A DNA stretch of 61,072 nt from Deltaproteobacteria bacterium (GCA_005879795.1 VBKJ01000136.1:1-61072); one strand, 5' to 3'. Positions 26,504 through 39,348 are shown, numbered from the stretch's first letter. Program-made: numbers and translations. Notes: generated by a model not told the origin, from the letters alone.

Positions 26504-27280
26504 TTACTCGCCCCCGAGCTGGCGGAGCGCCCCCTCCGCCGCGCGCCGGAGCGAGCGGTCGGCGCTGGCGCTCGCCGCGTGCAGCGCCGCCAGCACCGGC
26601 GCGCTCCGCTCGCCGAGGGCGCCCAGCCCCGCCGCAGCCGCGCGGCGCACGCGCTCGTCGCCGGTCTCGAGCGCACGGACGAGCTGCGCCGCCGCCCCAC
26701 CGCGATCGAGCGCGAGGCGCGCGAGCGCGGCGACGGCAGCGAGCCGCACGTCGCGCTCCTGGTCGCCGAGCGCGTGCAGCACCGCCTGCTCGACTTCAGG
26801 CGTCCGGGCCCCCAGGTCGCGCAGACAGTAGAGCACCATCTTGCGCTGTACGGCGTTGCCGGTGGTGAGCAGCGCGCGCAGGCTCTCGTCCACCGCGGCC
26901 CGGTCGCCCAGACGCACGACGATCGCCGCCGCCGCCCAGCGCAGGTCGCCGTCGTCGTCGCCGAGCGTCTCGAGCAGGACGGGGAGCGTCGCCGCGGGCG
27001 GGTTGCCCACGAGCGAGAGCGCGAAGGCCGCGCCCCAGCGCCGGCGCGGGAGCGGCGACGCGAGAGCGGCAAGGAGCACGTCCTCGACCGGGGCGCCGCG
27101 CGCCGCGAGCGCAGCGAACGCCTCGGCCGCCGGGCGCTCCACCACTTTGCGGCCGGCGCCCAGGCAGTCGGCGAGGGCGGCGAGTTCCTCGGGGGTCGCC
27201 CTGCCCCGCTCGGCCAGCTCGGCGATGGCCGCGCGGCAGATTTCGGGATCCGGCGCACGGAGGCGCTCGGCCCGGGTCAT
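26504..27280 (-). CDS. HEAT-repeat protein
   Basis: 258 residues of tandem helical HEAT-like repeats, e.g. LRWAAAAIVVRLGDRAAVDE, VRLAAVAALARLALDRGG and VRRAAAAGLGALGERSAP. Such solenoids are scaffolds or lyase-like bilin/PBS-type proteins; nothing catalytic is visible. Its ATG overlaps the stop of the lipoate-ligase-like gene (ATGA 27277-27280), so the two are co-translated. It is convergent with clpB, four bases apart. Confidence 0.85.
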   Translation of the reverse strand: MTRAERLRAPDPEICRAAIAELAERGRATPEELAALADCLGAGRKVVERPAAEAFAALAARGAPVEDVLLAALASPLPRRRWGAAFALSLVGNPPAATLPVLLETLGDDDGDLRWAAAAIVVRLGDRAAVDESLRALLTTGNAVQRKMVLYCLRDLGARTPEVEQAVLHALGDQERDVRLAAVAALARLALDRGGAAAQLVRALETGDERVRRAAAAGLGALGERSAPVLAALHAASASADRSLRRAAEGALRQLGGE

Positions 27281-28356
27281 GATGCGAGCGCCTGCGCGAT
27301 CGTCCCGGCCACCGTCTCGACGGGGCCGACGCCGAGGATGAAGTTCTCCGGCCGGGCGAAGACGCCGGCCACCATCGCCTCCACCGCGGCCGGCTCCGCC
27401 GGGCAGCCGTGCAGCGCCCGCTCGAGGCGCTCGACGGCCGGCGAGTTGGCGATGAAGTCGCCGGCCAGCATGGCCTCCTCGATGCGGCCGCCCGCGAGCG
27501 CCAGGTGCGCCTCGAGGACGCCCAGCTGGGTGGCGGCCGACGCGTGCCGGTCGAGGTGCGCGCCGAGGCGGCGCTGGCCGAGCCACCCCGCCTCGTCGCG
27601 GGCGGCGCCGCGCTCGAGCGTCCGCTCCCGGAAGCTCACGCCGAGCCGCCGCTCGTAGCCGCGCCGGAGGCGGTCGGCGACCTCCGCGGCGTCGAGCGCG
27701 CGGCCGAGCAGTCGTGCCAGGCTGGTCGTGTCCCCGGGCGTCAGCATGCCGGCCTTCACCACGCCGCGCGGGTCCGCGCGGTCGAGCAGGCCCGGCAGCA
27801 CGCTGAAGTCTCGCCCGCTGGCGATCACCGCCTCGAAGAGGAGCACCCCCGAGGCCTCGACCTCGAAGGACACCAGGGCGAGGATGCGGCGCCCGACGGT
27901 GATCAGGTCTCGGCCGGGGTAGAGGGCCGGGATGCCGCACAGCTCGCAGGCTTCGAGGATGCCGCGCACGCAGCGGTTCATGACCTGCTCGGGCGCGAGC
28001 GCGAGGGGATCGGACCCCACCAGCGCTCCGCGGTGGGGCAGCACGAGCGAGAGACCGACGAACCCCTCCCCCCACGGCATGGCGCGCCCGCCGGAGCGGC
28101 GCCGCCAGACGTCGACCCCCGAGCCGGCGGGCGCCTCCGGCGCCAGGTGGTAGCGGCCGAGCGACAGCACCTCGCCAGCGAGGTCGTAGACGCGGAGCGC
28201 CCCCTGCCCCGTCCGGGCCTCGTCGAGCAGCCGCCGATCGGCGGCCAGGCTCTGGCTTGGAGAGAGCCCGGGCTGCACGATCAGGTCGAGAGTGGGCGGC
28301 ACGGCGGCGAGCGCGCGGGCGCCGGGGCGCCCGCCGCGACGACGGGCGCGTACCAC
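27277..28356 (-). CDS. Lipoate-protein ligase A family protein
   Basis: 359 residues. The BPL/LPL catalytic fold is indicated by LRVYDLAGEVLSLGRYH (substrate-binding strand), RRRSGGRAMPWGEG (the RRxSGGGAV-type lipoyl-binding motif, here SGGRAM) and GRDLITVGRRILALVSFEVE in place of the usual DL.v.grKi.G. An accessory C-terminal helical region follows (about 220-359). Expected to attach lipoate or octanoate to E2/GcvH-type domains. The motif differences mean it could be a divergent amidotransferase or non-catalytic relative. Its partner gene is a HEAT-repeat protein, an unusual pairing. Confidence 0.75.
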   Translation of the reverse strand: MVRARRRGGRPGARALAAVPPTLDLIVQPGLSPSQSLAADRRLLDEARTGQGALRVYDLAGEVLSLGRYHLAPEAPAGSGVDVWRRRSGGRAMPWGEGFVGLSLVLPHRGALVGSDPLALAPEQVMNRCVRGILEACELCGIPALYPGRDLITVGRRILALVSFEVEASGVLLFEAVIASGRDFSVLPGLLDRADPRGVVKAGMLTPGDTTSLARLLGRALDAAEVADRLRRGYERRLGVSFRERTLERGAARDEAGWLGQRRLGAHLDRHASAATQLGVLEAHLALAGGRIEEAMLAGDFIANSPAVERLERALHGCPAEPAAVEAMVAGVFARPENFILGVGPVETVAGTIAQALAS

Positions 28357-28398
28357 GTCCGCCGCTGCCCGACAAACAAACGCGCCGGCGGGCGCGGC

Positions 28399-30258
28399 CT
28401 ACTCCCGCCCAGGCAGCCGGGCGACGAGGTCGGCGAGCGGCAGCGTCCGCTCGGCGTGCGCCTGCCCGGCGAGCGTGGCGGCGAAGGCGGTGGCTGCGTC
28501 GTCGTCACCGGGAATGAGCGCGGCGACCGGCGGCGGGTCACAGGCCGCGAGCTCGGCGACGAGGGCGTAGCCCGCCCGTCCGGGCAGCGCCAGGTCGATC
28601 ACCACGATCTCCGGCCGCTCCGTGCCGAACAGCTGGACGGCGCGCGCGCCGTCCCACGCCATCGAGACCGACATGCCCTCGCGCACGAGCGCCAGGCGGA
28701 GGCTGATGAGCGCATCCGCGTCGGCCCCGACGGTCAGGATCCGAGCGCCGCCCGCGGCGTGGCGCCGGAGGGTGGCGAGCACCGCGCCCGGCTCGACGGG
28801 CCGGACGACGGGCTCCACCGGGCCGAGGGGCAGCGCGCGCCCCGCGCCCGGCGTCGCGAGGCAGCCCCAGATGCGCGCGCTCGATCCGGGCTCGCGCAGC
28901 GTGGCGAGCGCGGCGAGCGCGCCGCGTGCGGCGAGGTTGACGACGACGCACGCGGGCGGCGTTCCGCCGAGAGACTGGAGCGCGGGGTCCCCGGGCGGAA
29001 TCACCCTCACCTGCCGTCCCCCGGCTGCGGCGGCCGCCCACGCCGGCTCGTCGTCCACGACCACGATGTCCGCGGGCGCGAGGCCGGACTGCGGCGGCCG
29101 CGCCTCACCCGCCACATGGCGCGTCGCCTCGGCCGCAAGGCAGTCGCGCTCGGCCTGCACTTCGGCCAGCGCCGCGCTCAGGCGGTCGCGCTCGGCCGCG
29201 ATGCTCTCGAGCCGGGCGCTCACGGCTACCACCTCCGCCTCGCGCTCCGCGCGCAGGCCCTCGACGCGCATCTCGAGATCGGCGTGGCGCGCACGTGCCT
29301 CGTCCTCCCGGGCCCGCGCTTCCGCCAGCTGCTCCCGCTCCGCCAGGAAGGTGCCCGTGTCCGCCATGAGCCGCGCGATCTCGTCGCCCGCCCGCTCCTC
29401 GCGCGTGGCGGCCTCGCGCAACTGGGCCGCGAGCTGCTCCCGCTCGCCCTCCGAGGCGCGCAGCCGCTCCCGCTCGCGCTCGGCGGCGGCCTCGGCCTCG
29501 GCGAGCCGGGCCATCAGGCGCTCGACCTCTTCGGCCTCGCGCGTCTCGTTCCCAACGGGCTCGGCCGCCGCCTCGCGCGCCTCCGCCGCGGCCACCGAGG
29601 TGACTGGCGACTGCACCCGCGCCGCCTCCCTCCGGTCGCGTTCAGCCGCAGGGCGGACGGGCGCGGGCGGCGTGCCGGCCGGCGCTGCCGTCGCCCCGCG
29701 CCGGCGCGCGGCCTCGATCATGTGCGCGAGGTCGCGCAGCGGCTCGGAGAGCGGCGCGAGCTGCTCCTCGGTGATCCGCTCCGGCGCGATTGCAACCAGG
29801 ACGAGGCTCGCGACCGGTGTCGTGCCGGCATAGAGCGGCACGCAGGCAACCGCCCTGACGGAGGTCGCCGCGTCGACCAGCGGCGGGACGTAGCGGTTCC
29901 GCGCCGCGCTCTCGATCAGGTAGACGCGGCGGTTGAGCAGGCCGTGGAGCGGCATGTCCCACCCGGCCGTCCCCCCACGGCGCACCTGGCGCAGCCGCTT
30001 GCAGCCCTCGTCCGAGAGCCCGACCTCCGCAGCGAGCCGGAGCAGGTCGTGGCGCTGGTCGAACAGGCAGACGGCACCGGCGCTGACACGGCTCGCCTCG
30101 AGCACGGCCCGCAGCGCGGGCTCGAGCATGTCCTCGGGAGCGGCGGCGCCGGTGGCGATCTCGCGCAGCTGCCCGGCGAGGCGCGAGGCCACCGGATTCT
30201 CGGCCGGACGCGGACCGGCCGGGCCGCGGCGGACCTGGGGCCCAGGGGTACTCTCCAC
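28399..30258 (-). CDS. GAF / coiled-coil / double-receiver signalling protein, paralogue A
   Basis: 619 residues from GTG 30258 (GAAGGA eight bases upstream). N-terminal GAF-like sensor about 20-180 (AGAVCLFDQRHDLLRLAAEV, then GLSDEGC). Long coiled coil about 215-395 rich in Glu/Arg/Ala. First receiver-like domain about 405-515 begins DIVVVDDEPAW but has Asn in place of the phospho-acceptor Asp (ACVVVNLAARGAL). Second receiver about 520-600 keeps the Asp (IVVIDLALPGRAGY) but lacks the usual acidic pair (VGADADALIS) and the conserved Lys after strand 5 (ALIPGDDDA). No DNA-binding or catalytic output. Cytoplasmic, possibly a localising or scaffold regulator. It has a tandem paralogue next door. 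Confidence 0.8.
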   Translation of the reverse strand: MESTPGPQVRRGPAGPRPAENPVASRLAGQLREIATGAAAPEDMLEPALRAVLEASRVSAGAVCLFDQRHDLLRLAAEVGLSDEGCKRLRQVRRGGTAGWDMPLHGLLNRRVYLIESAARNRYVPPLVDAATSVRAVACVPLYAGTTPVASLVLVAIAPERITEEQLAPLSEPLRDLAHMIEAARRRGATAAPAGTPPAPVRPAAERDRREAARVQSPVTSVAAAEAREAAAEPVGNETREAEEVERLMARLAEAEAAAERERERLRASEGEREQLAAQLREAATREERAGDEIARLMADTGTFLAEREQLAEARAREDEARARHADLEMRVEGLRAEREAEVVAVSARLESIAAERDRLSAALAEVQAERDCLAAEATRHVAGEARPPQSGLAPADIVVVDDEPAWAAAAAGGRQVRVIPPGDPALQSLGGTPPACVVVNLAARGALAALATLREPGSSARIWGCLATPGAGRALPLGPVEPVVRPVEPGAVLATLRRHAAGGARILTVGADADALISLRLALVREGMSVSMAWDGARAVQLFGTERPEIVVIDLALPGRAGYALVAELAACDPPPVAALIPGDDDAATAFAATLAGQAHAERTLPLADLVARLPGRE

Positions 30259-30368
30259 GCTGCGTCCTTCGCTCCGACCCCCCGCGGGCAAGCGCCTCCC
30301 GCCGGGGTCCTCCCTCCATTTGTCGGGCGAAAAGGGCGCCCACTTGAGGGGCCGCCGGGACTGGCCGT

Positions 30369-32258
30369 CTACCGCCCCCCCTGCAGCGCACGGACCTTCT
30401 CCAGCCGCTGCCCCGGCGACGCCTCGCTCTGCGCGAGCACGTCGGCGAGCAGACGGTCGCGCGGTACGGGGAGGCTCGCCGGGGCCTTGCGCGCGAGCGC
30501 GGCAGCGAAGCCGGCGGCGGTGTCGTCCTCGTCGCCGTAGACGAGCACGAGGCTCGGCACCGGGCTCGCGCCGGCCAGGCGGACAACCAGCTCGTAGGCG
30601 CTGCGTGGGCGCAGGTCGAGATCGAGCACCACCACCTCGGGGCGGACCGCGTCGAAGAGATCCACCGCCTGCTTGGCATCCCACGCCATCGACACCGACA
30701 GCCCCTGGCGCGTGAGGGCGTGGCGCAGGCTCATCAGCGTGTCGCCGTCCGCACCCGCGGTCACGACGCGCGTGCCGCGCTTGGCGTGGCCGGCGAGCAG
30801 GGCAAGGACCACGTCCAGGTCGAGGGGGCGCGTCGTCGCCTCGATCATGCCGAGCGGGAGGGCCTTGTCGCTCGTCGGGGAGGAGAGACAACCCCAGAAG
30901 CGTCCGCTCGCGCCGGCCGCGCGGAGCGCGCTCATGGCTGCGAGCGCGCCCGGGGCGGCCACGTTGACGACCAGGCGCGCGGGCGTCACCCCCGTGAGTC
31001 GGGTGACCACGTCGCCTGCTGGCTCGACGACTGCCACGTCGGTCCCGTCGATGGCTGCGCCCGCCCACGCCGGGTCGGTGTCGAGCACCGCGACCAGGCG
31101 CCGCGTCCTGCCCGCCTCACCCGCGAGCGGCTCGGCGGCGAGGGCCGGCGCTGCGGCCGGCACATGGGACCTCTCCACCGGCTCGAACTCTTCCCCCACG
31201 GGCGCGCTTACCGTGACGACGGGTATGACCTCGGGGTCCAACTCGGCCGTCTCGGACCCGAGCACGTCCTCGGAGGGCGTATGGGCTGGCCTCACCACCT
31301 CGGCGTCGGCGGCGAGACGGTCGCGCTCGGCCCGGAGCTCCGCCAGCGCAGCGTGCAGCTCATCGCGCCCAGCGGTGAGCACCTGGAGCTCGGTGCGCAG
31401 GGCGGCGACCGTCTCGCGCAGCGCGCCCGTCTCGCTCTCGACCGCGCTGCCGCGCGCGGCGAGCTCGTCGAAGCGCGCCCGGACCTCCGCCAGCTCCGTA
31501 TCCCTCCGCCCGCGCTCGTTCCGCACGCTCTCCAGCTCCGCCTCGACCGCCGCCCGCGCCGCTTCGGCCGCGCGCGCCTGCCCGGCGGCCTCTTCGAGCG
31601 CAACGGCCATCTCCGCGCGCTCCCGCTCGGCGACCGCGAGCAGCTCGGCCCTCTCGGCGGCGCCGGCCGCCACCGCATCCTCGGCCGCCGGGGTCGCCTC
31701 AGCGGCCCGCACGCGGCGTGCGGCCGCGATCATCCGCACTACTTCGCCGAGCGGGCCCTCGAGCTGCTGGATGTCCCCCTCGGAGAGCGCGCGCGGCTCG
31801 AGCGCCACCAGGACCAGGCTCCCGAACGGCGTCTCCCCGGCGCACAGCGGCACGCAGGCGACGCTGCGGATGGGTGCCTCGACGAGTGCCGGCAGATGAT
31901 GATGGGTACCCGGGGCGGCTTCGATGCGCTCTATCCGGCGATCACGCAGGCTCCGGAGCGGCACCTCCCAGCCCCGGGCATCGCCCTGCCGAACGCTGCG
32001 CAGCAACCGGCAGCCCTCGTCCGAGAGCCCGACCTCGGCGGCGAGCCGGAGGAGCCGGTAGCGTACGTCGAAGAGGCAGAGCGCTCCGGCCTGCGCGCCG
32101 CTCGCCTGGAGGATGGCCTGCAGCGCCGGCTGGAGCGCGTCCTCGGGCACCTCGCTGGCAGCGATCGCGCGCAAGCGGTCGGCGAGCGCCGCGGCGGGGT
32201 CCGCAGCAAGAGCCATCGCCGCGGACGCACGCGGCTGCAACCTGCGGAAGATGCCCAT
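30369..32258 (-). CDS. GAF / coiled-coil / double-receiver signalling protein, paralogue B
   Basis: About 629 residues. Same layout as the neighbour at 28399-30258: GAF-like domain (AGALCLFDVRYRLLRLAAEV, GLSDEGC), coiled coil, pseudo-receiver with Asn at the acceptor position (ARLVVNVAAPGALAAM) and shared FWGCLSSP, then a second receiver with Asp kept (VVVLDLDLRPRSAYELV) but GADGDT for the acidic pair and GDEDD where Lys is expected. The first receiver begins LVAVLDTDPAW. ATG 32258 has no good ribosome site; another ATG 14 codons in (MALAADP) is possible. The two genes are 110 bases apart in one direction and surely arose by duplication. Confidence 0.8.
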   Translation of the reverse strand: MGIFRRLQPRASAAMALAADPAAALADRLRAIAASEVPEDALQPALQAILQASGAQAGALCLFDVRYRLLRLAAEVGLSDEGCRLLRSVRQGDARGWEVPLRSLRDRRIERIEAAPGTHHHLPALVEAPIRSVACVPLCAGETPFGSLVLVALEPRALSEGDIQQLEGPLGEVVRMIAAARRVRAAEATPAAEDAVAAGAAERAELLAVAERERAEMAVALEEAAGQARAAEAARAAVEAELESVRNERGRRDTELAEVRARFDELAARGSAVESETGALRETVAALRTELQVLTAGRDELHAALAELRAERDRLAADAEVVRPAHTPSEDVLGSETAELDPEVIPVVTVSAPVGEEFEPVERSHVPAAAPALAAEPLAGEAGRTRRLVAVLDTDPAWAGAAIDGTDVAVVEPAGDVVTRLTGVTPARLVVNVAAPGALAAMSALRAAGASGRFWGCLSSPTSDKALPLGMIEATTRPLDLDVVLALLAGHAKRGTRVVTAGADGDTLMSLRHALTRQGLSVSMAWDAKQAVDLFDAVRPEVVVLDLDLRPRSAYELVVRLAGASPVPSLVLVYGDEDDTAAGFAAALARKAPASLPVPRDRLLADVLAQSEASPGQRLEKVRALQGGR

Positions 32259-33078: not shown

Positions 33079-33786
33079 TCAGGCGACGATGTGCTTCCGC
33101 ATCGCGAAGCGGACCAGGTCGGCGGTGGTGTGGAGGTCGAGCTTCTCCATGATCCGCTTGCGGTGCGTCTCGACGGTGTTGACGCTGATCGAGAGGACGC
33201 CAGCGATCTGGCTGTTCACCTTGCCCTCGGCGACGAGCTGCAGGACTTCGCGCTCGCGGTCCGTGAGCAGCGTGAGATCATCCTCGAGGGCCCCTCCGTC
33301 CTCGTTTTCGACGTAGTCCTTGAGGAGGATCTGCGAGACCATGGGGCTGAAGGCGGACTCGCCGCGTGCGACCGCCTTCACCGCCTTCAGAAGCTCCAGG
33401 CCCTCCGAGTCCTTGAGGAGGTAGCCGGACGCTCCAGCCCGTAGGCCGCGACGGACGGCCAGGTCGTCAGAGACCGAGGTCAGGATGAGCACCCTGACGC
33501 GTTTGTCACGCTCCACGATCCGCGCGGTCGCGTCGATGCCGTTCAGCTCGGGGAGCGTCACGTCCATGACAACGACGTCGGGACGGAGCCGCTCCGTCAT
33601 CTCGACCGCGGTGCGCCCGTCTCCGGTTTCACCCACGATCTCGATCGCGTCGTCCGTCTCCAGGATGCGGTGGAGGCCCTGGCGGACGATGGTCTGGGGA
33701 TCGACGAGGAGTACCCGGGTACGCGTCCTTGGTTCCAGACCCGTCTTCGACGTCGATGACGGACGCACCATCGTCCCGGAGTGCAT
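33079..33786 (-). CDS. NarL/FixJ-type two-component response regulator
   Basis: About 235 residues from ATG 33786; ATG 33771 or a TTG at 33822 are alternatives. Receiver domain begins VLLVDPQTIVRQGL, phospho-acceptor Asp75 lies in VVVMDVTLPE, and Thr/Lys follow in ILTSVSDD and YLLKDS. The C-terminal LuxR-type helix-turn-helix is LLTDREREVLQLVAEG, then ISVNTVETHRKRIMEKL. The acidic pair is reduced (VDP instead of DD). It is expected to bind DNA when phosphorylated. No cognate HisKA_3-type kinase is adjacent, so its partner is elsewhere or is one of the island kinases. Confidence 0.93.
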   Translation of the reverse strand: MHSGTMVRPSSTSKTGLEPRTRTRVLLVDPQTIVRQGLHRILETDDAIEIVGETGDGRTAVEMTERLRPDVVVMDVTLPELNGIDATARIVERDKRVRVLILTSVSDDLAVRRGLRAGASGYLLKDSEGLELLKAVKAVARGESAFSPMVSQILLKDYVENEDGGALEDDLTLLTDREREVLQLVAEGKVNSQIAGVLSISVNTVETHRKRIMEKLDLHTTADLVRFAMRKHIVA

Positions 33787-34028
33787 GAAAGGTTTCGTGC
33801 CGTCCGAAACGCCATCGGTCAATCACCACTTTCGGGTAGGGCCCGGTGCCCACGTGGTCGGGGTGGAAACACCGGCCAGCTGGGCGGTTCCTTCACCCGA
33901 TCCAGCTCGTGCTCCTCCCCGCGGCACGGCGCGGATGGGCGCTGGGCGGACACGTCTCCGCGCACGGGGGCGCCATGGCAGCGCCTGCCCGCCAGGGCGC
34001 TCCGCCGGGCGGGCCCCTCGCTGCGCGC

Positions 34029-35876
34029 CTACCCGCCTTCCTCCATCAGCAGGATCACGCCGTGCGGCTGGTTGTCGGGCGCGGCGAGCGGGAAGCACAC
34101 CACGGGGCACCTGAAGGCCTTGCCACGCCGGTTGCGCGCTTCGAGTTTCAGCTCGTGCGGGCCGCTGTTCCCGGCCACGCACTCGCGCAGCGGCGTCCTC
34201 AGCTGCTCCACGGGCAGGCCGATGTCGAGGTTCAGGAAGTTCTGCCCCCGCACCTCGTCGGCGCGCAGCCCCCAGAGGTCCTCGGCCTTGCGGTTCCAGA
34301 TCTGGACGGCGAGGTTCGCGTCGAGGACGACGACCCCCGACTGCATGCTGGCGACGATGGACTCGAGGAAGACGTTGGCGCGGTTCAGCTCGCCCGTGCG
34401 GCCGTGCAGCTGGTCGTTCGTCGTCTGGAGCTCCTGGTTGGTCGACTGCAGCTCTTCGTTCATGGTCTCCATCTCTTCGTTGGAGGACTGCAGCTCCTCG
34501 TTGGTCGTCTCGAGCTCCTCGACGGTCGATTGCAGCTCCTCGTTGGTGGTCTGCAGCTCCTCGTTGGTCGACTGCAGCTCCTCGTAGGCCGTCTCCAGCT
34601 CGGCGTTCGACCGCTCGAGCTCCTCGTGGAGCTGCGCGTAGCGACTGACGTCCGTGAACGTGATCGCCACCCCGAGCGCCGGGCCGCCGTCGTCGAGGAG
34701 CGGCGCCACCTGCACGTCGTAGTACCGCGCCTGCGCGTTGGGGCCGGGACGCTCGACGTTCGCCATCCCGACCGGCCGGCGCTCCGCGACCGCCTGCTCG
34801 ATCAGCGGCCGCAGCTCGACCGGCCGGTAGCACAGCTCCACATCGCGGAAGGGGCGCCCGATGTCCGCGGCGCTCAGCCCGAAGCGGACACGCGTCTGCT
34901 CGTTGGCGAGCACGATCGCGTCGTTCGTGTCGACCACCACCTGCGCCACCGGGATGCCGTCGACCGCGAGCTCGCGCAGCCTGACCTCGCGTGACACGCG
35001 GCTCCCGGCCTCCTGATCGCCGGTCTGGGCGAGGATCATCAGGCGATCGCGCAGGTTGATCTTCGCGGTCTTCACGAAGACGCGGTGCTTCAGGTTGACC
35101 GGACTGAACACGCTGGTGTGCATGAGGAGCATCTCCGCCCGCCCCAGGAAGAGGAAGCCCGCGTCGTTGAGCGCGAAGTGGAAACGGGCGAGGACCTGGC
35201 GCTGGGTCTCGAGGTTGAAGTACATGAGGGTGTTGCGGCACACGAGCAGGTCGAGACGCGAGATCGGCGCGTCCTGGACCAGGTTCAGGTTCCCGAAGAT
35301 AATCGCCTGGCGCAGCTCCTTGCGGAAGACGTGGCGGGCCGCCGCACGCTCGAAGTACCTGTCGCGGAGGTCGGGGGGGACGGGCTCGAGATCCTGGGCG
35401 CTGTAGCTTCCCTGACGGGCCTGCGTGACCGCGTCCTCGTCGACGTCGGTGGCGTAGATCTTGACGCGCTGGTTGAACGCGTCTGCGCCGAGCACTTCCG
35501 CCAGCGTCATCGCGAGGCTGTACGCCTCCTGGCCGCCGGCACACCCGGCGCTCCAGACACGGATGGGCTCCGCGTCGGCCTTGGCGGCCAGCAGCTGCGG
35601 GAGGATCTCGGCGCGAAGGTATTCCCACGCGGGGGAGTCGCGAAAGAAGCTCGAGACGTTGATCAGGACGGTATTGAAGAGGTTGGTGAACTCCCCGGGA
35701 TGGGTCTCGAGGTATTCGAGGTAGTCGCCGTAGCCCTGCAGGTTGAGCATCTGGGTGCGCTTGCTCACGCGCCGCGCGAGGCTCGACCGCTTGTACCCGG
35801 TGAAGTCGAATCCGCGGCTGCTCCGCAGATGCTCGAGCAGCGCCTCGAGCGCCCGGCCGTCTTCCACGTCCTTCAT
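34029..35876 (-). CDS. CheR methyltransferase fused to PAS domains through a heptad coiled coil
   Basis: 615 residues. CheR part about 1-270: SSLARRVSKR, then NVSSFFRD, SAM motif VWSAGCAGGQEAYSLAM, ATDVDEDAV and LLVCRNTLMYF, which is the complete set for an MCP-glutamate methyltransferase. A PAS domain is at about 310-410. Residues about 415-500 are a striking chain of ELQSTNEEL/ELETTNEEL heptads forming a coiled coil. A second PAS (about 500-610) ends at the stop, with no kinase attached. Related proteins usually continue into a histidine kinase. Its ATG overlaps the cheB stop (ATGA 35873-35876). Confidence 0.92.
   Translation of the reverse strand: MKDVEDGRALEALLEHLRSSRGFDFTGYKRSSLARRVSKRTQMLNLQGYGDYLEYLETHPGEFTNLFNTVLINVSSFFRDSPAWEYLRAEILPQLLAAKADAEPIRVWSAGCAGGQEAYSLAMTLAEVLGADAFNQRVKIYATDVDEDAVTQARQGSYSAQDLEPVPPDLRDRYFERAAARHVFRKELRQAIIFGNLNLVQDAPISRLDLLVCRNTLMYFNLETQRQVLARFHFALNDAGFLFLGRAEMLLMHTSVFSPVNLKHRVFVKTAKINLRDRLMILAQTGDQEAGSRVSREVRLRELAVDGIPVAQVVVDTNDAIVLANEQTRVRFGLSAADIGRPFRDVELCYRPVELRPLIEQAVAERRPVGMANVERPGPNAQARYYDVQVAPLLDDGGPALGVAITFTDVSRYAQLHEELERSNAELETAYEELQSTNEELQTTNEELQSTVEELETTNEELQSSNEEMETMNEELQSTNQELQTTNDQLHGRTGELNRANVFLESIVASMQSGVVVLDANLAVQIWNRKAEDLWGLRADEVRGQNFLNLDIGLPVEQLRTPLRECVAGNSGPHELKLEARNRRGKAFRCPVVCFPLAAPDNQPHGVILLMEEGG
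34420..34635 (-). repeat. Heptad-encoding tandem repeat inside the CheR-PAS gene
   Basis: Repeated 21-base blocks such as gtcgactgcagctcctcgtt encode EELQSTN-type heptads, about eleven copies, giving a signalling coiled coil between two PAS domains. Confidence 0.8.
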
Positions 35877-36475
35877 TGCACCTGCCCCTTCATCAGCGTC
35901 ACCAGCGCGGACGCGATCTCCTCGAGGGGCAGGACGAAGTCGACGTTGCCGCTGTCGATGGCCGCGCCGGGCATGCCGAAGAACTCCGATGTGTGCTGGT
36001 CCTGGGCGATGACGGTGCCGCCCATCTTCTTGATGGCCTTGACCCCCATCGAGCCGTCGCCGCCGCTGCCGGAGAGCACGACGGCGATCGCACGGTCCCT
36101 GTAGCTCGCCGCCACCGACTCGAACAGGAGGTCGGCGGAGGGGCGCACGAAGTGCACCAGCTCGGACTGCGTGAGCGAGAGGCTGCCGTCGGCGTTCAGC
36201 AGCAGGTGCCGGTTGGGCGGGGCGATGTAGACCCGCCCAACCGCCAGGCGGTCGCCGTCCGCCGCCTGCCTCACCTCCAGGCGCGTGCGGTGGCTCAGGA
36301 TGTCGGCCATGAGGCTGCGGTGGCGCGGGTCGAGGTGCTGCACCACGAGGATGCAGGCCGGGAAACCGGCCGGCAGGTCGCTGAGCACGCTGCTGAGCGC
36401 GGTGAGTCCTCCGGCCGACGCAGCGAACGCGACCACGTCGAAGGCGGCGTCCTCGGGCGAGGCGCCGTGCGTCAT
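35873..36475 (-). CDS. CheB-type methylesterase without receiver domain
   Basis: 200 residues, only the catalytic domain. Motifs: FAASAGGLTAL with nucleophile Ser, ILVVQHLDPRHRS with catalytic His, YIAPPNRHLLL and VLSGSGGDGSMGVKAI with the Asp. Classical CheB has an N-terminal receiver that controls the esterase; none is present here. Paired by a 4-base overlap with CheR-PAS, so the two set a methylation state. There are no chemoreceptor, CheA or CheW genes in the window, so a non-flagellar role is likely. Confidence 0.93.
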   Translation of the reverse strand: MTHGASPEDAAFDVVAFAASAGGLTALSSVLSDLPAGFPACILVVQHLDPRHRSLMADILSHRTRLEVRQAADGDRLAVGRVYIAPPNRHLLLNADGSLSLTQSELVHFVRPSADLLFESVAASYRDRAIAVVLSGSGGDGSMGVKAIKKMGGTVIAQDQHTSEFFGMPGAAIDSGNVDFVLPLEEIASALVTLMKGQVQ

Positions 36476-36645: not shown

Positions 36646-37089
36646 TCATGCCTTGAGGCGCCGCCTGGCGGCGTCGAGGTCGAGGACCACCCACAGCACG
36701 ATATCGTCGGAAGGGCGTGGGCTCCGTCGCGCCGAGGCGAGCATCTCCCAGTGCCGCGCTCCGCGCGGGCTGAGCCCCGCCACGTGGAGCCGCCCGTCGC
36801 GCGTACGGGCCAGCCGGAGCGCGCCGATGGTGTTGAGGAACCCGGGCGGCCGGGTCCTCAAGAAGCGGAGGAAGCGCGCAGCCCCCCGGACCGGCAGCCC
36901 GAGACCGACCAGCTCGTTCGCCAGCACGAACTCGATCAGGTTGTCCTCGGAGTAGAGGCGCGGCTTCCCGGCGCCGACGGTATCCGCGATCTCGGGCCGC
37001 ACGACGCCCTTCTCCGCCCAGTCGATGACCTGCCGCGGCTGGAGCCCGACCCTCGTGCAGACCGCTGCGCGCGAGTAGCCGCGCGTCAT
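36646..37089 (-). CDS. MerR-like transcriptional regulator
   Basis: 147 residues. The N terminus (YSRAAVCTRVGLQPRQVIDW, then AEKGVVRP) is a winged helix-turn-helix of the MerR type. GKPRLYSEDNLIEFVLANEL and GLGLPVRGAARFLRFLR follow as in MerR wing and linker. No Cys cluster for metal sensing; the C-terminal 50 residues are an unrecognised effector or dimer part. ATG 37089 sits only a few bases from an inverted repeat and promoter-like elements, suggesting a leaderless, self-regulated transcript. Divergent from the small protein/hybrid kinase operon, which it may control. Confidence 0.82.
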   Translation of the reverse strand: MTRGYSRAAVCTRVGLQPRQVIDWAEKGVVRPEIADTVGAGKPRLYSEDNLIEFVLANELVGLGLPVRGAARFLRFLRTRPPGFLNTIGALRLARTRDGRLHVAGLSPRGARHWEMLASARRSPRPSDDIVLWVVLDLDAARRRLKA

Positions 37090-37092
37090 ATA

Positions 37093-37125
37093 CGTATTTG
37101 TGTACGCGCCAGAGCGATTCGTCAA
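37093..37125 (-). promoter_or_regulatory. Putative promoter and operator of the MerR-like gene
   Basis: On the minus strand TTGACG (37120-37125) could be a -35 box. About 16-18 bases on is the AT-rich stretch TACACAAAT. The inverted repeat CGTA-N6-TACG at 37093-37106 overlaps it and ends four bases before the ATG. In this GC-rich DNA the AT-rich patch stands out. An autoregulatory site is inferred, not shown. Confidence 0.35.
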
Positions 37126-37237
37126 GAGCGCTCGCCCCACGACTTTTTTTTTCGCCCCTCCCGCATGCGCGGGAGGCCGTCGCAACGGAATTGCGATAAG
37201 CGGTTCACGAGAAGAGATCCGCGCGGGAGGAGGTCGC

Positions 37238-37687
37238 GTGAACAACCACGCATCAGATCACTCGCAGCGCGAGCAACGGAACTCGAAGGCGGGCGAAGTC
37301 CCCGGACGCGAGCCCGGGGCCGCCCCGGAGGGCGCTGCGGAGGCGGACGTCCGCCTCCTCGCGCCCGAGACCATCCTCGCCTCACAGTTCCTCGGCGAGC
37401 GCGTGTCACCCACGACGTTCAGCGGCGAGGCCCGGCTCGCGCTGGCGATCCTGCAGGACGCGATCCAGATCTACTGCAAGCCGGAGGCGTCCCTGCGCCT
37501 CCGTCGGGAGGCCGCGAGCTGGCTCGGCAGCAGCGATCGCTCCTGGTGCTTCTCGTTCGAGCGGATCTGCGAGGCGCTCGGGCTGGAGCCGGAGTATGTG
37601 CGCCGCGGCCTCGGCCCGCCGGGGAAGCACCTGCCGACGGCGCCGGGGTCGCGAGGGATCGTGTGCCGCCGAGCGAGGGCCGCGTGA
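37238..37687 (+). CDS. Small conserved-type protein coupled to a hybrid kinase
   Basis: 149 residues from GTG 37238, five bases after GGGAGGAGG. The first 45 residues are polar and disordered. The rest reads LLAPETILASQF, RLALAILQDAIQIYC, RRREAASWLG-type helices and WCFSFERICEALGLEPEYVR. The FSFERICEALGLEPEYVRRG end resembles a short helix-turn-helix and recurs in small proteins I associate with deltaproteobacteria. Its stop overlaps the GTG of the histidine kinase (GTGA 37684-37687), indicating a shared mRNA and probably a shared pathway. Confidence 0.72.
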   Translation: MNNHASDHSQREQRNSKAGEVPGREPGAAPEGAAEADVRLLAPETILASQFLGERVSPTTFSGEARLALAILQDAIQIYCKPEASLRLRREAASWLGSSDRSWCFSFERICEALGLEPEYVRRGLGPPGKHLPTAPGSRGIVCRRARAA

Positions 37688-39348
37688 CGGAAGAGCGCCG
37701 GGGCCGGGTCGCCGAGCAGATCGAGGTTCTGCGCGAGCGTGGGGAGGAGCTCGCCCGAGGGACGCGCACGCGCGACGCGTCACTCGAGATCGCCCCGGCG
37801 GAATCCTCTGCGGGGTTGCGGAGCGCGCTCGAGGCCGAGCGAGAGCTGATGGCCGCGATCCTGCGGAGCACGGGCGATGGCCTGGTGGCGGTCGATCGGA
37901 CGGGCAGCATCACCCTGGTCAACGACGTCGCCGAGACGCTTCTCGATGTGCGGAGGGAGAAGCTCCTGCGGCGGCGGCTCGCGGATACGCTCGCCTGCGC
38001 CGGGCGCCCGGTGCGCCTGACCCCTACCGCCGGCGCCGAGGGTGTAGCCTACGAGGTGACGCTCGAAGCCCCACAACAAATGCTCGATCTGCGCATCAGC
38101 CCCATCGCGAGCGGCGGCTACGTCCTCCTGGTGCGGGAGGTGACGGCCGAGCGCGCAGCCCGGGAGAGGGCGGAGCAGCAGGTGCGGCTCGCCGCCACCG
38201 GGCAGCTCGCCGCCGGCATCGCGCACGACTTCAACAATATCCTGTCGGTGGTGCTGACCCACGCGCAGTTGCTGCGCAACGACCCCACGCTCCCCGACGA
38301 CGTGCGCGTCAAGCTCAGGGCCATCGCCGACCAGGCGCGCCGGGGCGGACAGCTGGTCCGCCAGGTTCTGGATTTCAGCCACCGCACACCCACGCGTCGC
38401 CAGCGGGTCGATCTCGCCGCGTGCGTCAGGCAGACCGTGAACCTGCTCGAGCGGACCATCCCCGAGAACATCGTCATCGGCACCGCGCTGGCTCCGGGGG
38501 AGTGCGTGGCCGACGTCGACCCGGTCCGAGTCGAGCAGGTAGTGGCCAACCTCGCCTTCAACGCGCGCGACGCGATGCCGGGTGGGGGACGCCTTCGGAT
38601 CGAGCTCTCCCGCCGCACGCTGAAGGAAGGCGAGCGCCCGCCGCTCGCGGGCATGACGCCGGGGGAATGGGCCACGCTCTCGGTAGCGGACACGGGCTTC
38701 GGCATGTCGCCCGCCGTCCAGCGGCGACTCTTCGAACCCTTCTTCTCCACCAAGGCCGGGAAGGGAACGGGGCTCGGGCTGGCACAGGTCTACGGCATCG
38801 TGAAGGAGCACGGAGGTCATGTCGACGTGACGAGCGAGGTCGGCCGGGGAACGACCTTCACCGTGTACCTGCCGCTCGCGGACGTCCGCCGCGAGCCGCA
38901 GACGAGGGCTCCCGACGGGCCGCGGGAGGCGAAGGCGCCCGACGTCTTCGACTCCGCCGACGAGACGCTGCCGACTGGCGGGGGAGAGCTGGTCCTTCTC
39001 GTCGAGGACGACGCGACCTCGCGCGTCGCGAGCGCCGAGGCGCTCGAAGCCCTCGGATATCGCGTCCTCGCGGCGGAGACCGCGGAGCAGGCGTGGGAGC
39101 TGTGGGTGCGGCACGAAGACGAGGTCGCGCTCGTGCTCACCGACCTGGTGCTGCCGGGCGTGAGCGGCGCGTATCTCTGCTCGGCGCTGAGGCGTCAGGA
39201 CCGTGCCCCCGTCATCGTGATCTCCGGGTATCCGATCGACGGGAAGGACAGCCGGCTGGTCGGGGTGGCTCACCGGCTCCAGAAGCCCTTCGGGATCGAG
39301 CGCCTCGCCCGGGTGATCCACCACACGCTCGCCGGGTCGCGGCGCTGA
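37684..39348 (+). CDS. Hybrid sensor histidine kinase with PAS and C-terminal receiver
   Basis: 554 residues. N-terminal coiled region, PAS about 55-150 (LRSTGDGLVAVDRTGSITLV), HisKA dimerisation with phospho-His181 in GIAHDFNNIL (the HDFNN subtype), then an HATPase_c domain: NLAFNARDAMPGGG (N box), VADTGFGM (G1), KGTGLGLAQVYGIV (G2). Receiver about 435-550 with LLVEDD acidic pair, acceptor Asp487 in LVLTDLVLPG and Lys in LQKPFG. No membrane segment, so it is a cytoplasmic sensor. Complete in all catalytic residues. Overlaps the small upstream gene by GTGA. Confidence 0.95.
   Translation: MTEERRGRVAEQIEVLRERGEELARGTRTRDASLEIAPAESSAGLRSALEAERELMAAILRSTGDGLVAVDRTGSITLVNDVAETLLDVRREKLLRRRLADTLACAGRPVRLTPTAGAEGVAYEVTLEAPQQMLDLRISPIASGGYVLLVREVTAERAARERAEQQVRLAATGQLAAGIAHDFNNILSVVLTHAQLLRNDPTLPDDVRVKLRAIADQARRGGQLVRQVLDFSHRTPTRRQRVDLAACVRQTVNLLERTIPENIVIGTALAPGECVADVDPVRVEQVVANLAFNARDAMPGGGRLRIELSRRTLKEGERPPLAGMTPGEWATLSVADTGFGMSPAVQRRLFEPFFSTKAGKGTGLGLAQVYGIVKEHGGHVDVTSEVGRGTTFTVYLPLADVRREPQTRAPDGPREAKAPDVFDSADETLPTGGGELVLLVEDDATSRVASAEALEALGYRVLAAETAEQAWELWVRHEDEVALVLTDLVLPGVSGAYLCSALRRQDRAPVIVISGYPIDGKDSRLVGVAHRLQKPFGIERLARVIHHTLAGSRR

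Follow-up and report, generated by a model that had tools for sequence, protein, structure and literature searches.

An invariant asparagine in the pseudo-receiver of a family of GAF-coiled-coil proteins, represented by a tandem gene pair in a Deltaproteobacteria bacterium

What might a protein do that carries two receiver domains short of residues for phosphotransfer, and no output domain? The question is raised by two adjacent genes, here called A and B, in a stretch of 61,072 nucleotides from Deltaproteobacteria bacterium (GCA_005879795.1, VBKJ01000136.1:1-61072), the whole of which is referred to as the window. The initial annotation, made from the sequence alone, described them as tandem paralogues at 28399-32258, each with a GAF domain, a coiled coil and two receivers (REC1 and REC2), and both genes are found at that place (Table 1). 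Given the Asn that is invariant in REC1 of the family to which they belong, and the chemotaxis neighbours of some of their relatives, the domain seems to be a dead switch with a function of its own.

Pfam and NCBIfam gave no match to REC1. A profile built from 75 family REC1 sequences did align (hhalign probability 88.6%, E = 2.6e-6) with a profile made from 40 canonical receivers of the same loci, and this alignment sets the REC1 Asn on their phospho-Asp. When a 34-row REC1 profile was searched against the PDB the best match was PleD residues 154-271, i.e. its D2 adaptor pseudo-receiver (E = 1.4e-9), with the PleD Asn aligned to that of REC1; PhoP-type receivers followed (1.7e-7), and the REC1-type profile also finds bona fide CheY (3.7e-9). 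AlphaFold gave a receiver-like fold for REC1 of B modelled alone (mean predicted local distance difference test score, pLDDT, 86), and this model matched mostly receivers in VIA-align, at Z of 6-8 (below 8). Foldseek with REC1 alone returned weak matches (E = 0.056 and worse) in which receivers were mixed with other Rossmann-like folds, and the fold call is therefore based on the profiles plus the model. By sequence and model REC1 is a true receiver relative, and the profile-profile alignment confirms that Asn stands for the phospho-acceptor Asp in the first receiver of both proteins, as had been noted initially. The modelled strand 5 is long and continuous, with a nearly invariant L-G...P motif around it, and helix alpha4, which would lie between strands 4 and 5, is missing; the predicted loss of this part of the usual output face is tentative because the AlphaFold alignments are shallow.

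The Asn is present in all 75 aligned members, over a tree length of 44.5 substitutions per site. At the end of strand 1 an acid (D or E) is found in 74 of the 75; no such constraint is seen on the Lys and Thr positions or on that of the second acid, which vary freely. With Asn for Asp throughout and the Lys lost, REC1 is a pseudo-receiver in the sense that key residues for phosphotransfer are gone. Among receivers without Asp in general, Asn makes up 16% of the replacements at the acceptor site (PMC4395418), and its presence in every member is therefore not due to chance. The selection that the initial annotation had read from two diverged copies is thus seen in the relatives as well, and neither of the outcomes named there as refuting its reading, a first domain unlike a receiver in structure prediction or random residues in place of the Asn, was observed. 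Nor is the Asn a product of how the profiles select, since the same profiles retrieve receivers with Asp and the borderline matches are canonical or fragmentary: on inspection of four apparent members without Asn, L159 was rejected as a canonical hybrid kinase, L161 and L162 as ordinary receivers, and L160 as a fragment without that part of REC1.

REC2 is degenerate in another way. Pfam Response_reg (PF00072) recognises it in A (1.7e-8, 35.0 bits vs a cut-off of 30.2); the match in B is below the cut-off (9e-5, 23.0 bits), where homology is clear from the family profile. As claimed earlier, both proteins keep the Asp and lose the acidic pair and the Lys. The acidic pair has become Gly-Ala, and the Thr position is lost with that of the Lys. 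Across the family the Asp position is occupied by D in 61 of the 75 members and by H in the other 14, so that REC2 too has pseudo-receiver character in a domain that mostly keeps its Asp. The 14 His members (loci L062, L113-L125, L144) appear to make up one 14-row clade of the tree (f15, f13, f11, f8).

At the N-terminal end Pfam GAF_2 matched B (2.4e-8) and, just under the curated cut-off, A (1e-5). A phmmer search of the B GAF domain against the PDB gave no match, and the domain was placed instead by Foldseek with the full model, where GAF structures rank first. The B model (mean pLDDT 75) consists of the GAF domain at residues 21-186, a single continuous helix at 193-321, a disordered linker, and two receiver-like domains from 388 to ~610. 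Detection of GAF did not extend to every branch of the family, and failed in several chemosensory members. Between the end of GAF and the start of REC1 the members have from 114 to 1,514 residues, and the middle therefore acts as a spacer, not as a fixed domain. Domain searches revealed no output domain in A or B, which supports the earlier claim, and Pfam no GGDEF.

The third-position GC on the coding strand is 0.93 and 0.91 for the two genes, and the long antisense open reading frames over them have the mirror image of this codon-position pattern; both frames are accordingly supported and the antisense frames marked as mirrors. A plausible AAGGA site lies upstream of the GTG start of A. The two proteins are 39% identical over 370 amino acids and 48% over the C-terminal module. 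Pattern matching found a terminator-like hairpin directly after A and none between B and A, which would fit a single B-A transcript.

Matches to the REC1-REC2 profile were found in 41 of 148 genomes of the class, and none outside it in a phylum-wide sample of 297 genomes at E 1e-15, the three matching genomes all being in-class. The named contigs that matched belong to metagenome-assembled genomes labelled Deltaproteobacteria or Polyangiaceae UTPRO1, and from these labels we infer that the host class is Binatia/Binatota of GTDB. The window's genome has two further paralogues, with longer coils, giving four copies in all. Adjacent copies are also present in f7 (L061, L132) and f11 (L130, L131, L145), i.e. 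tandem pairs occur in three families of the class including that of the window, and those in f7 and f11 apparently arose by separate duplications. A and B themselves sit on long branches where the tree is unresolved, and it does not group them as sisters. The recurrence of tandem pairs is compatible with heteromers, such as the heterodimer considered initially, of which it is no demonstration.

In 15 genomes, from five families of the class, a CheA gene lies in the same cluster as a family gene, and the cluster partners are CheA, methyl-accepting chemotaxis protein (MCP), CheW, CheB and CheR. The order in L046, from the window's own family, is CheA, MCP, CheW, CheR, CheY, CheB, family gene; elsewhere the family gene follows CheB (L116, L128) or CheA (L142, L143, L146), or diverges from a REC-CheW-MCP-CheA set (f6 genomes), and in L116 and L146 only 3 bases separate it from the neighbouring frame. 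About 20% of the copies are within 10 kb of a chemosensory cluster vs ~1% by chance, the latter being our own estimate for one or two clusters per 5-Mb genome. A and B are not encoded with such genes: neither CheW nor MCP was matched in the window's genome (G000, 99.6% complete), nor in several other genomes with intact family genes. The chemosensory link differs by branch, being strong in some and absent in that of the window, and A and B must therefore work outside an array of this kind. For the same reason the CheB and CheR-PAS genes ~2-4 kb from B are no evidence of an array; the link to chemotaxis proteins considered initially has stronger support from the relatives, which sit inside real chemosensory clusters, than from the window. 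We also note that with CheR-PAS and CheB side by side (34029-36475) in a genome without detectable MCP or CheW, their usual methylation substrate seems to be absent.

How these features might work together can be put as a proposal to which we give about an even chance, namely that A and B are scaffolds or adaptors for signalling, shaped like rods and probably dimeric, which take a GAF input and act independently of phosphorylation. The GAF head would sense a ligand or a partner, the coiled coil would join two chains and set their reach, and the C-terminal REC1-REC2 pair would serve as a docking module that needs no phosphorylation. The REC1 Asn would face the near-invariant acid of strand 1 and probably holds the dead pocket in one conformation, and REC1 would then be a structural adaptor in the manner of the PleD D2 pseudo-receiver. 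The docking partner in several relatives is probably a CheA-type chemosensory complex, and in the window's lineage the module may have been rewired to a different one, for which a hybrid kinase and the machinery of type IV pili are candidates. A hybrid kinase gene abuts a family gene, convergently, in four genomes of the window's family, and PilT-type ATPases are present in the window's genome and in all 24 genomes tested. The proposal draws on the precedents of FrzS, PleD D2 and RitR taken together, and a role of the scaffold or polar-marker type, as suggested initially, is the best reading. A wider version, which we put forward more tentatively, is that such GAF-coil rods of variable length form a class-wide family in which the dead pocket of the receiver is the functional site that is conserved, with an Asn-acid lock under strict selection, and that the rods dock to chemosensory arrays in certain lineages and, where these were lost, to other partners.

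Several observations weigh against the scaffold proposal. No clear orthologues of A or B were found in the sampled genomes. PleD is ahead of ordinary receivers by just ~7 bits, which does not demonstrate a special kinship, the AlphaFold alignments have only 11 and 10 rows, and the heptad signal in B is weak. Moreover, chemosensory genes are lacking next to most family loci, and the family is itself missing from many genomes of the class that have chemosensory genes.

REC1 could instead be a ligand-binding pseudo-receiver as in ShkA, in which case there would be two sensory domains, GAF and REC1, with REC2 or the coil relaying the signal. The dead receiver of ShkA binds cyclic di-GMP on its beta5-alpha5 face, small-molecule binding is proposed in that work to be frequent among pseudo-receivers (PMC7010744), and the long strand 5 of REC1 with its conserved motif speaks for a similar use. 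We nevertheless consider this unlikely, as A and B have neither a kinase core nor a ShkA-type context and the invariant residue sits in the old active site, not at beta5-alpha5. It is improbable, too, that the family is a dedicated output or adaptor of the chemosensory array that binds CheA, phosphorylated CheY or CheB, with the window's copies as leftovers still binding the products of the nearby CheB and CheR-PAS genes. The clustered relatives and the position of B favour such a role, but the window's genome is among those that have intact family genes and no CheW or MCP match, and the keeping of four copies there is unlike decay. Very improbable is a function as slow response regulators or phosphate sinks, the latter also suggested in the initial annotation, with REC1 Asn deamidated to Asp or REC2 phosphorylated: a reversion of Asn to Asp has been reported for a receiver (in work cited in PMC4395418) and most members keep the REC2 Asp, but REC1 is without Asp, neither domain has the second acid, the Thr or the Lys that phosphotransfer needs, and the REC2 position is His in the remaining members. 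That A and B are decaying copies without function, as long branches and unresolved orthologues might imply, is hardly credible: each reading frame is uninterrupted and has the base composition of coding sequence, and neither protein has lost the invariant residues despite the divergence of the C-terminal modules.

Table 1. Coordinates of genes A and B, their domains, nearby genes of the window, and tandem pairs at other loci (prefixed by locus)
Feature	Position	Strand	Basis or remark
Gene B: GAF - coiled coil - REC1 (Asn pseudo-receiver) - REC2	30369..32258	(-)	ATG start, 629 aa
B GAF domain, residues 21-186	31701..32198	(-)	Pfam; model; Foldseek
B long helix / coiled coil, residues 193-321	31296..31682	(-)	Model; coiled-coil Pfam matches
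B REC1, receiver-like, Asn at phospho-acceptor position	30774..31103	(-)	hhalign; PDB profile search; AlphaFold pLDDT 86; VIA-align
B Asn432 codon, invariant residue	30963..30965	(-)	75/75 members
B REC2, Asp546 kept; acidic pair, Thr, Lys lost	30426..30770	(-)	Pfam, family alignment, model
Gene A: paralogue of B, same layout	28399..30258	(-)	GTG start, 619 aa; 110 bases after B
A GAF domain	29710..30180	(-)	Pfam; family profile
A coiled coil (approximate)	29110..29559	(-)	Sequence; heptad-type signal at period 3.5
A REC1	28741..29076	(-)	hhalign
A Asn441 codon, invariant residue	28936..28938	(-)	75/75 members
A REC2, Asp555 kept; acidic pair, Lys lost	28402..28743	(-)	Pfam, family alignment
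Terminator-like hairpin directly after A	28381..28396	(-)	Pattern match only
Ordinary LuxR/NarL-type response regulator, outside the A/B family	33079..33822	(-)	Pfam/NCBIfam
CheR with PAS domains and coil	34029..35876	(-)	Pfam
CheB methylesterase domain	35873..36475	(-)	Pfam
Hybrid histidine kinase PAS-HisKA-HATPase-REC, N-terminal start uncertain	36751..39348	(+)	Domain search
Tandem pair	L061:1005-7399		
Tandem pair	L132:6531-12719		
Tandem pair	L130:2005-7446		
Tandem pair	L131:7924-12294		
Tandem pair	L145:7409-11551		

Directly downstream of A, on the same strand (26504-28356), are a weak lipoate-protein-ligase-like gene and then a HEAT-repeat gene. At other loci the neighbours have for the most part metabolic functions (wax ester synthase, acetolactate synthase, Mur ligase, sulfatase) and are uninformative. 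In seven genomes a gene for a fusion of a solute-binding protein family 3 domain with a chorismate mutase type II domain (L115:4187-5593 and relatives) lies two genes away from a member of the family, and bacterial alpha-2-macroglobulin genes are present near family genes in two genomes of the window's family (L046:13174-18795, L040:3121-8949).

A 2025 review describes how pseudo-receivers are switched as a mystery and reports few or no favoured residues among them (PMC12632262). If the wider version of the proposal is true, the conserved dead pocket would be a counter-example to the view that few or no pseudo-receiver residues are functionally important (PMC12632262). An Asn fixed in REC1 beside a REC2 whose Asp varies makes the question testable with single-residue mutants, and chemosensory clustering in relatives together with its absence in the window's genome is a natural experiment on the rewiring of signalling modules.

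Literature searches on chemotaxis in Binatota, and on pseudo-receivers of the Asn type in connection with PleD, gave nothing on the A/B family. As far as the literature covered shows, the combination of domains, as suspected from the start, the strict Asn and the chemosensory clustering are all undescribed; pseudo-receivers and coiled-coil scaffolds as a kind are known, and so are the parts (FrzS and AglZ, PleD D2). PleD of Caulobacter provides the closest solved relative of REC1 by profile: D2 has Asn at the phospho-acceptor position, adjoins another receiver, and is described as a dead receiver of the Asn type with the role of a structural adaptor within a dimer (PMC12632262; PMC8999164). 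In PleD, however, the pseudo-receiver follows a working receiver and precedes a GGDEF diguanylate cyclase domain, whereas in A and B it comes before a degenerate receiver, after GAF and coil, with no GGDEF, and its model is without helix alpha4.

FrzS and AglZ of Myxococcus resemble A and B in that they combine a pseudo-receiver with a coiled coil, have no output domain of the classical kind, and are linked to chemosensory (Frz) signalling. FrzS lacks the Asp, and its dead receiver controls function through a surface without Asp phosphorylation (PMC1974792). Theirs is one N-terminal pseudo-receiver followed by the coiled coil, without GAF, while the order in A and B is GAF, coil, REC1, REC2, with two C-terminal receivers; FrzS also has Ala, not Asn, at the acceptor site, and its chains match the REC2 part only, and weakly. 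The hybrid kinase ShkA of Caulobacter shares a pseudo-receiver directly before a second receiver, but has a kinase core and a phosphorylatable REC2, and its REC1 is without helix alpha3 where the A/B-type model is without alpha4.

RitR and other aspartate-less receivers have Asn at the acceptor position, as REC1 does, and the RitR Asn hydrogen-bonds the strand-1 acid Glu9 (PMC4395418). RitR is, however, a DNA-binding regulator in which mutation of Asn53 had no effect, in contrast to the invariance of the Asn in the whole A/B family. Finally, in a GAF-HisKA-HATPase-REC-REC kinase from another family of the class (L159:3575-6460, G138) the family profile is matched over its full length by the receiver pair (2.6e-26), but the protein includes a kinase core, both of its receivers carry the canonical Asp, and its GAF domain fails the family GAF profile. 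A shared origin with such proteins thus fits for the receivers and not for GAF, and a kinase of this type is a possible ancestor from which the kinase core was lost on the way to the family.

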